Shown: piece after piece, positions 13,091 through 54,679 of the stretch
Layout: every line of letters starts with the position of its first letter
Position numbering within the stretch: position 1 is the stretch's first letter
From: Halobaculum sp. XH14
GTDB lineage: Archaea; Halobacteriota; Halobacteria; Halobacteriales; Haloferacaceae
DNA: 64,000 nt
NCBI RefSeq assembly: GCF_032116555.1
Contig: NZ_CP134949.1
Location: forward strand, 2,232,001 to 2,296,000
Direction of reading: 5' to 3'
Made by a program: the position numbers and the translations under genes
The notes under the pieces: generated by a model
Told to the model about the DNA's origin: nothing
Databases searched by the model: none
Seen by the model: only the letters and a program-made list of their open reading frames with translations

Positions 13091-13107
13091 AGGAGGGCCT
13101 CGCCCTC
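13091..13107. terminator. Perfect GC hairpin after the APH-like gene
   Basis: GGAGGGC, a three-base loop, then GCCCTCC form a 7-base-pair stem about 110 bases after the APH-like gene. No T-run follows directly, so a terminator role is only a possibility; it may be part of the repeat-rich region. Confidence 0.35.
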
Positions 13108-13276
13108 CCCAACCGCTTGCGATGCTCGCTCGCAGGCTCGCTGCGATGCTCACCCCCCACGCGCGTCGACTCACCCCACAGGGGGGTTCGAGTCACGCGC
13201 GCCAAGCCAACCACCAGCAGGCGCAGACCGCACCCCTGCTGCCGACGCACCCGCCAGTTGACCGGGAGAACGCTCC

Positions 13277-13471
13277 GGTGGACTACCTACGGCGTGCTCG
13301 TTCGGTAGTCGGGGGCGCGTCGCTCGGCCGACTTTCCGCAGGGTGGGACTGAAAGGGGCCGCGGCGCTCGTGGTGCCCCGACGACGCAAGCACCGCAGGA
13401 ACGAGGCCGCAGGCCGAGTGACGAGGAGCGCAGCGAGGCGCGGCCCACGAGCGCCGCGGGGGCTTTCGAGG
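13277..13471 (+). repeat. Dispersed hairpin repeat, copy A
   Basis: The copy starts with GGTGGACTACC...GGTAGTC, itself a small inverted repeat, and ends with CCGCGGGGGCTTTCGAGG. Between them is a long hairpin: left arm 13359-13373 (CCGCGGCGCTCGTGG) pairs perfectly with 13445-13459. The loop holds CAAGCACCGCAGG (13387-13399) and ACGAGGAGCGCAGCG (13421-13435), both of which recur in copy B. It lies between two convergent gene ends. Confidence 0.75.
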
Positions 13472-26489: not shown

Positions 26490-26688
26490 GACTACCGACC
26501 GCGGGGACGAGCGGTAGTTCCGATGAAACGCGAGCCCGACCGACCGACAGGGCGGGAATGGAAGGGGCCGCGGGTCTCGGGGAAGGCGCGGACCGTCAAG
26601 CACCACAGGCGAGCGACCGGAGGGAGCGAGACGAGGAGCGCAGCGGCCGCACCGAGCCGAGACCCGCGGGGGCTTCCGCGGTCGTCAC
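26490..26688 (+). repeat. Dispersed hairpin repeat, copy B
   Basis: The copy starts at GACTACC...GGTAGTT, then GGGCGGGAATGGAAGGGG, then a long hairpin with arms 26568-26580 (CCGCGGGTCTCGG) and 26657-26669, perfectly complementary, then GGGGGCTTCCGCGG and GTCGTCAC. The loop shares CAAGCACC-CAGG and ACGAGGAGCGCAGCG with copy A at similar spacing, but the arm sequences differ from A while still pairing. It fills most of the gap between the convergent nucleotidase-like and atpB genes; nothing else is seen in that gap. Confidence 0.75.
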
Positions 26689-50416: not shown

Positions 50417-50525
50417 GCTGGTGACGACCGCGGAAGCCCCGCGGCTCTGTCATTCCCGTCCACCGGTTTTCCTATCAAGCGTCGTTCCCCTGACTACCGA
50501 ACGTGCACGCCGTGGGCAGTCCACC
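50417..50525 (-). repeat. Dispersed hairpin repeat, copy D (hairpin lost)
   Basis: Read on the minus strand: GGTGGACTGCCCACGGCGTG (compare copy A: GGTGGACTACCTACGGCGTG), then CGTTCGGTAGTC, a 40-base spacer, GGGAATG, and finally GCCGCGGGGCTTCCGCGGTC followed by GTCACCAGC. The two outer blocks match A and B, but the central hairpin is missing. Confidence 0.7.
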
Positions 50526-50641
50526 GTGACGCCGCCCGGCTGACGGTCGACGGGATGTGGCGGGCGCGACCGCGAGCGACCCGTGGGAGCGAGCCGCGCC
50601 CGCCGGGGAGGCGTGGGGAGCCCACGCGACGACCCGACCGT

Positions 50642-50694
50642 CCCACGGGGCGGGACTGAACGGGATCGGATCGGGCGTCCGGGGGCTTTCAACG
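50642..50694 (+). repeat. Dispersed hairpin repeat, truncated copy C
   Basis: GGGGCGGGACTGAACGGG is followed within about 14 bases by CCGGGGGCTTTCAACG, so only the inner boundary and the 3' end of the family are present. Confidence 0.5.
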
Positions 50695-54208: not shown

Positions 54209-54679
54209 AGGAACCTCTTTTCCGGAGGTCCTCCTCGCTCGCGCGCCGGAGGCGCGCTCGCTCGTCGAACCCCCGCAAAACCCGTTCATGCCAAAAGGCC
54301 GCGAGCAACGGTCGGCGCGGCTTCGCCGCGCCTCCCTCGCTCGCGGTGGGTACCGGAATGACTGATCCCCTGATCGGGTTCGTCGCTCACCAGTTGTCTT
54401 CCTGCTATCTCCTCGGCCGGAGAACTGAACGTTTGCACTAGACACCCTTGCTTTTGTACCCCGTTCACGGAGAAGCTGCCGTGGCGTACGACGGCCGATG
54501 AGCATCCATCGCTACGATAGCAGGACCCCCAATGTCGCACCAGTAGTTGTACCGTGAGAGAGGGAGGCCGGAGGCCGACCGAGCGAGCGGCTCTTTGGCA
54601 TGAACGGGTTTTGCGGGGGTCTGGCCGCAGCGCTCGACGAAGTCGAGCGCGAGGACATGCCCCCGCAAAAGAGGTTCGT
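54209..54679. repeat. Head-to-head repeat pair between korB and idsA
   Basis: Two copies of a roughly 135-base sequence face each other across a unique spacer of about 200 bases. The inner blocks, 54269-54295 and 54594-54620, are a perfect 27-base inverted repeat (ACCCCCGCAAAACCCGTTCA plus TGCCAAA). The outer ends share GAACCTCTTTT and begin at the korB stop codon on one side and at the reconstructed idsA stop on the other; the inner ends share CCTCCCTC-CTC-CGGT. Each copy has its own GC hairpin. No ORF is supported in the spacer. The T-rich ends could terminate both convergent genes. Confidence 0.8.

Follow-up and report, generated by a model that had tools for sequence, protein, structure and literature searches.

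The two long hairpins in the window (the whole 64,000-nucleotide stretch of Halobaculum sp. XH14 DNA analyzed here) belong to a family of repeats that fills intergenic space in most of the haloarchaea searched, and that is described neither in Rfam nor in the open-access papers covered by our literature searches. At the heart of the family is a ~127-nt module, M, with conserved loops joined by helices whose two arms change in sequence together. The explanation we favor, at about even confidence, is that M is a non-autonomous dispersed haloarchaeal repeat, which multiplies as DNA via a single, folded plus-strand intermediate. M resembles the REP and PATE repeats, and the folded plus strand that spreads is probably single-stranded DNA; we infer its mobility from the distribution of the copies rather than from an observed move. 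The family lends itself well to studying how a folded strand is propagated or put to use.

Copies of the repeat in the window

A preliminary description of this DNA had proposed two copies of a hairpin repeat, A and B, with perfect stems of 15 and 13 bp, whose arms differ outside CCGCGG and still pair. Both copies and both stems were recovered by our reading, as was the claimed order of the shared blocks, with CAAGCACC-CAGG at 13387-13399 and 26597-26609, and ACGAGGAGCGCAGCG at 13421-13435 and 26631-26645. The features are:

13098-13201 (bounds approximate), minus: inverted remnant of upstream module U, GGCGCGCGTGAC..GGTTGGGGAGGGCGAGG, read against U modules of other copies
13280-13310, plus: copy A, upstream hairpin module H, GGACTACC..GGTAGTC, read directly, with a near-copy in inverted orientation at 50478-50526
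13341-13467, plus: copy A, module M with G tracts, outer helix, long hairpin and CTTTC end; direct reading and covariance model R1 (110.8 bits, E 7e-18)
13341-13347, plus: copy A, G tracts 1 and 2, GGGTGGG, direct reading
13351-13355, plus: copy A, 5' strand of outer helix, GAAAG, paired with CTTTC at 13463-13467
13356-13358, plus: copy A, GGG facing GGG at 13460-13462
13359-13373, plus: copy A, helix P1, 5' arm CCGCGGCGCTCGTGG, 15 bp perfect
13387-13399, plus: copy A, inner conserved block CAAGCACCGCAGG, alignment A2; its GCxCC/GGxGC helix covaries
13400-13420 (bounds approximate), plus: copy A, terminal hairpin P3 with tandem G.A pairs and GCA triloop, from the analysis of P3
13421-13435, plus: copy A, inner conserved block ACGAGGAGCGCAGCG, reading and alignment
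13445-13459, plus: copy A, helix P1, 3' arm CCACGAGCGCCGCGG, 15 bp perfect
13460-13467, plus: copy A, GGG and CTTTC end, direct reading
26490-26519, plus: copy B, upstream hairpin module H, by reading; sister genome G002 retains H at this locus too
26550-26677, plus: copy B, module M (R1, 94.1 bits, E 6.5e-15)
26568-26580, plus: copy B, helix P1, 5' arm CCGCGGGTCTCGG, 13 bp perfect
26597-26609, plus: copy B, inner conserved block CAAGCACCACAGG, reading and alignment
26631-26645, plus: copy B, inner conserved block ACGAGGAGCGCAGCG, reading and alignment
26657-26669, plus: copy B, helix P1, 3' arm CCGAGACCCGCGG, 13 bp perfect
50428-50461, minus: third copy, left half, a degenerate M without the hairpin
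50478-50526, minus: third copy, module H, 86% match to 13276-13324
50648-50690, plus: third copy, right half, M without the long hairpin (R1, 27.4 bits, E 0.004)

The outermost helix, which is GAAAG/CTTTC in A and GGAAG/CTTCC in B, represents a further paired change. That these hairpins are not chance palindromes is indicated by their R1 scores, although A and B were both among the 86 sequences from which the model was built, and by dozens more copies in the same genome. The GACTACC..GGTAGT block, which had been taken as the 5' part of the repeat, is indeed present in A and B, but constitutes a separate upstream hairpin module, H, that most copies lack. The folding energy of the whole 195-nt copy A is unremarkable (z -1.26); the M cores fold better (z -2.8 for A as DNA, z -3.8 for B as RNA), and the case for structure in A and B is a comparative one, not one of folding energy alone. 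The window also contains a 34-nt inverted repeat unrelated to M, ACCCCCGCAAAACCCGTTCATGCCAAAAGGCCGC, at 54269-54302 and 54587-54620, the arms of which are 94% complementary and 284 bp apart.

Architecture of the module

The elements of M are: 1) two G tracts, GGG-N-GGG; 2) a 5-bp outer helix, which is GAAAG/CTTTC in 38 and GGAAG/CTTCC in 11 matched copies, with one discordant copy having GGAAG/CTTTC; 3) an opposed GGG/GGG loop; 4) a helix of 13-19 bp with free sequence; 5) an inner motif, CAAGCACC-CAG / GAGGAGCGCAG; and 6) a terminal hairpin capping this motif, with tandem G.A pairs and a GNA triloop. All four G tracts are intact in 126/146 copies, and the GGG/GGG loop is found in 133/146, with GGG/CCC being read in 3/146, which are possibly misaligned. 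Tandem G.A pairs are present in 103 of 127 terminal hairpins and a C(GNA)G triloop in 88; any GNA triloop occurs in 92/127, as against ~6 in shuffled sequences.

Upstream of M there may be an optional module, either H (the GACTACC block described above) or the ~150-bp U, whose inner motif is a related one, and inverted pairs of the form M'-U'-U-M, with their 5' ends facing, are common. The arm-plus-CTTTC end is often tandemly repeated ~60 bp further downstream. At two loci (L226 and L299) a ~65-bp unit containing TTTATAA, a copy of the arm and GGGGCTTTG is repeated in tandem 3-4 times in the downstream tail, which could set several 3' arms in competition for a single 5' arm. Some paralogues have arms in common, including the same G.G mismatch.

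Four loci (L054, L068, L078 and L087) carry a hairpin-less M, GGGTGGGACTGAAAGGGGCCGCGGGGGCTTTC, which reads as a canonical four-tract G-quadruplex motif, and all of them have module H upstream. Other repeats are nested within M at L050, L052, L043, L057, L058 and L088: hairpins of the type GTTCACGAG..CTCGTGAAC lie in the arm of several copies, and a TTCGAGAGAGC..GCTCTCTCGTCATCACGAAAATCTTCGATTTTCGAACGA block replaces the terminal hairpin in several.

Covariation and the folding strand

The preliminary description had called for an alignment of copies from this genome and its relatives. Covariance model R1, derived from 86 copies, served to build two realignments, A3 with 86 Halobaculum copies and A4 with 60 copies drawn from many genera; the structure was set by hand and by model-based realignment, an RNAalifold consensus on a MAFFT alignment having misplaced the arms. 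As an independent check, the arms were also read directly from their flanking anchors. In A4, 92.9% of the paired cells are complementary, as against 71.3% upon shuffling, with 347 versus 89 double-changed cells. The covariation score is 0.516 in A4 (0.140 shuffled, at most 0.08 in slid controls) and 0.336 in A3 (0.113 shuffled); both alignments lean to the model and kinship can exceed such shuffles without structure, weaknesses of which the slid controls and the anchored readings are free. The inner GCxCC/GGxGC helix also covaries, with CACT/GAAG and GGACC/GGACC variants.

The paired changes, which far exceed the controls, have also arisen by descent within a single orthologous insertion site. 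In genus g14, five occupants of this site, with 19-bp arms, show alternative Watson-Crick pairs at 9/19 positions, with no mismatch and a single G.U pair. The site thereby offers a clean natural test of palindrome co-evolution, in which selection can be weighed against DNA-level correction of arms.

The earlier proposal that the paired changes reflect selection on structure is supported, in the wider sense of selection or concerted change, with the caveat that hairpin template-switching or copy-to-copy exchange of DNA can also alter both arms together. In its extreme form, this would mean that the palindrome merely corrects itself in DNA, with no selection on the fold of what is otherwise junk, an explanation to which we give very little credence. 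Such correction would account for the scarcity of intermediates at the g14 site, for the G.G mismatch common to paralogues, and for the replacement of whole arms between L199 and L202, whose flanking proteins are ~96-97% identical; this last case requires that copies also exchange their arms or that arms are also corrected at the DNA level. However, arm exchange by itself leaves unexplained why the GGG/GGG loop, with a paired helix on either side, has hardly ever been turned into GGG/CCC. The class-wide conservation of inner loops, G.A pairs and GNA loops, and the excess of G.U over A.C described below, also speak against it.

The mispairs of the well-aligned helices, in which G.U makes up only 2-3% of pairs, point to the strand that folds. 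G.U outnumbers A.C by 32:5 in A4 and 45:20 in A3 (77:25 together). A plain cruciform, one of the forms suggested initially, would have both strands folding and G.U equal to A.C, and is not supported in view of this excess; folding of the plus strand of M on its own is well supported. GNA loops occur in RNA too. The C(GNA)G form characterizes DNA mini-hairpins of extraordinary stability (PMC4686876), and by this analogy may tilt M towards single-stranded DNA.

Distribution and turnover

Similarity searches of the home genome returned about 50 places per query, and 54 stretches, after removal of overlaps, yielded about 76 copies of M, namely 57 full, 7 hairpin-less and 12 partial. Across Halobacteria, the model matched 163 of 194 genomes, with dozens of copies per genome in most haloarchaea searched. 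Among genomes drawn from the whole phylum, 46 had a match, all of them belonging to the 53 Halobacteria, and none of the ~240 others did. The conjecture of an unlabelled haloarchaeal element is thus upheld by this distribution and by the Rfam searches given below. Two pattern matches in viral contigs fit the model weakly, and M was not found in phages.

By our own gene calls all copies are intergenic and the units contain no ORF; these calls, like the empty sites below, come from few genomes. The neighboring genes are arranged in tandem-sense (24), tandem-antisense (20), divergent (21) and convergent (10) orientations, and a 5'UTR or terminator element was rejected for want of an orientation rule relative to genes.

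Turnover of M at individual loci is well supported. The B locus retains only remnants in sister genomes G001 and G002, as does the A locus in G001, and the home copy L087 has no hairpin while its G001 counterpart, L173, has one. At the g14 insertion site described above, which has conserved flanks, the unit is whole in 8 genomes and missing in 11. A MITE would have terminal inverted repeats shared with a transposon, and a target duplication; no clear terminal inverted repeat or target duplication was seen at this site, where the flanks diverge next to the unit, and no exact junction was found, the empty sites differing between flanks. A non-autonomous mobile unit, one of the possibilities raised at the outset, best fits the intergenic placement, the absence of an orientation rule, and the presence/absence and decay at orthologous loci.

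Against this stands the retention of M at the same place in three genera, with different arms in each, between a topA-like zinc-ribbon gene and an endA-like tRNA intron endonuclease gene (names assigned from sequence reading rather than family search; L199, L202, L208, L209, L222), which can mean a host function. One such function, which we consider quite improbable, is that of a DNA structure in the chromosome, a G-quadruplex with a hairpin, which the host would use in, for example, supercoil handling, replication pausing or nucleoid binding, and which would be spread by recombination and kept by use. The prevalence of the four GGG tracts and the GGG/GGG loop would suit such an element, as would its class-wide, intergenic occurrence and the paralogues with common arms, as if exchanged. 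Yet 31 of the 194 genomes have no match, copies are lost or broken at syntenic sites, and no regular spacing or orientation of M along the chromosome was seen.

In genome G082 two near-identical copies of a whole G200-type locus (L296 and L297) lie ~1.1 Mb apart.

RNA or DNA

The preliminary description had also entertained a structured RNA. M could be a transcribed structured RNA, forming together with U an ncRNA of ~300 nt, acting as a multicopy RNP or regulator, in which case the covariation would be ordinary RNA selection; we regard this as rather unlikely. Like the structured ncRNA classes of Rfam, M has conserved loops joined by covarying helices, and a variable helix between conserved internal loops has the look of structured RNA. 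The plus-strand-specific tolerance of G.U and the retention of one site in three genera would also agree with an RNA. In g14, a TATA-like box precedes M by 140-170 bp in 7 of 9 loci. This spacing places it where a promoter of U might lie and would suit transcription of the unit in this genus, a point against the mobile-DNA explanation; the g14 tail repeats contain TTTATAA too, so this box may not be a promoter.

On the other side, the 450 bp preceding each of 62 Halobaculum copies showed neither a TATA-like box nor an AT peak. Unlike the Rfam classes, M matches no Rfam model: searches at the gathering score gave nothing in the window or at four further loci, and the surroundings of copy A gave nothing at E-values up to 5. 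The copies have no sense bias to genes, they have decayed in sister species, and mismatched intermediates are almost absent at the orthologous site. An RNA role is therefore possible, but in Halobaculum sp. XH14 it finds neither a promoter-like box nor a fixed relation to genes. We lean towards DNA rather than RNA for M, short of proof.

Search for a mobilizing partner and comparison with known repeats

No transposase partner for M was found among the candidates considered. IS200/IS605 elements were rejected as movers: M is absent within 1.5 kb of 30 tnpB genes (0/30 loci), and several genomes rich in M have little or no TnpB (G001 and G059, which carry M, have none), while it is abundant in some M-poor ones. 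An omega-RNA of TnpB, which would lie at the 3' end of a tnpB gene, was likewise discarded, as the sole TnpB of the home genome, at C1:488790, is not at any M copy. Y1_Tnp was detected neither in the home genome nor in several other M-rich genomes, and dependence on a Y1/RAYT enzyme was rejected for the home genome, where PF01797 (the REP-associated Y1 transposase) has 0 matches. The independence of M from IS200/IS605 poses a concrete question, namely what spreads a folded strand in haloarchaea.

Under the mobile-DNA explanation, the plus strand of M would become single and fold during DNA multiplication. The folded strand would present a G-tract platform, the free-sequence helix and the conserved inner motif with its compact GNA hairpin cap to a putative trans-acting enzyme. 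Were copying restricted to foldable copies, any arm sequence capable of pairing would do, and a copy for which its site has no need would decay. A bolder form, which we hold only tentatively and at a low probability, is that of a class-wide element in which the selected unit is the folded single strand (G-quadruplex platform, free helix, inner motif and GNA hairpin), with an enzyme different from any known transposase partner to move or use it; this could amount to a new single-strand transposition system or a new class of large ncRNA that is mobile.

Among known repeats, the palindrome-associated transposable elements (PATEs) of Haloquadratum (PMC3119063) are like M haloarchaeal, without coding capacity and present in many copies, with palindromes near their ends, core deletion by recombination between repeats, and insertions nested in one another. 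M, with its hairpin, no ORF and a position between called genes, shows the palindromes near termini and lack of a coding gene that typify PATEs. PATEs have ends in common with IS605-type transposons, whereas M abounds in genomes devoid of Y1 and TnpB. The small mobile repeats (SMRs, ~110 bp) of Haloquadratum (PMC3119063) are also short and hairpin-like with no known mobilizer, and the hairpin-less M copies resemble an outer block able to drop an inner hairpin; SMRs are set apart by fixed inverted terminal repeats, the arm of M being free sequence between conserved blocks.

The bacterial REP/BIME/REPIN sequences with RAYT are, like M, intergenic palindromes in dozens of copies, with inverted pairs around a spacer and a folded single strand as the likely substrate. 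REPs need a Y1 enzyme. They are 20-40 bp long with a GTAG or CGTC tag (PMC3733652), whereas M is ~127 nt long with G tracts and an inner motif. GGTAGTC, which includes the letters of the GTAG tag, is confined to module H, a unit separate from M.
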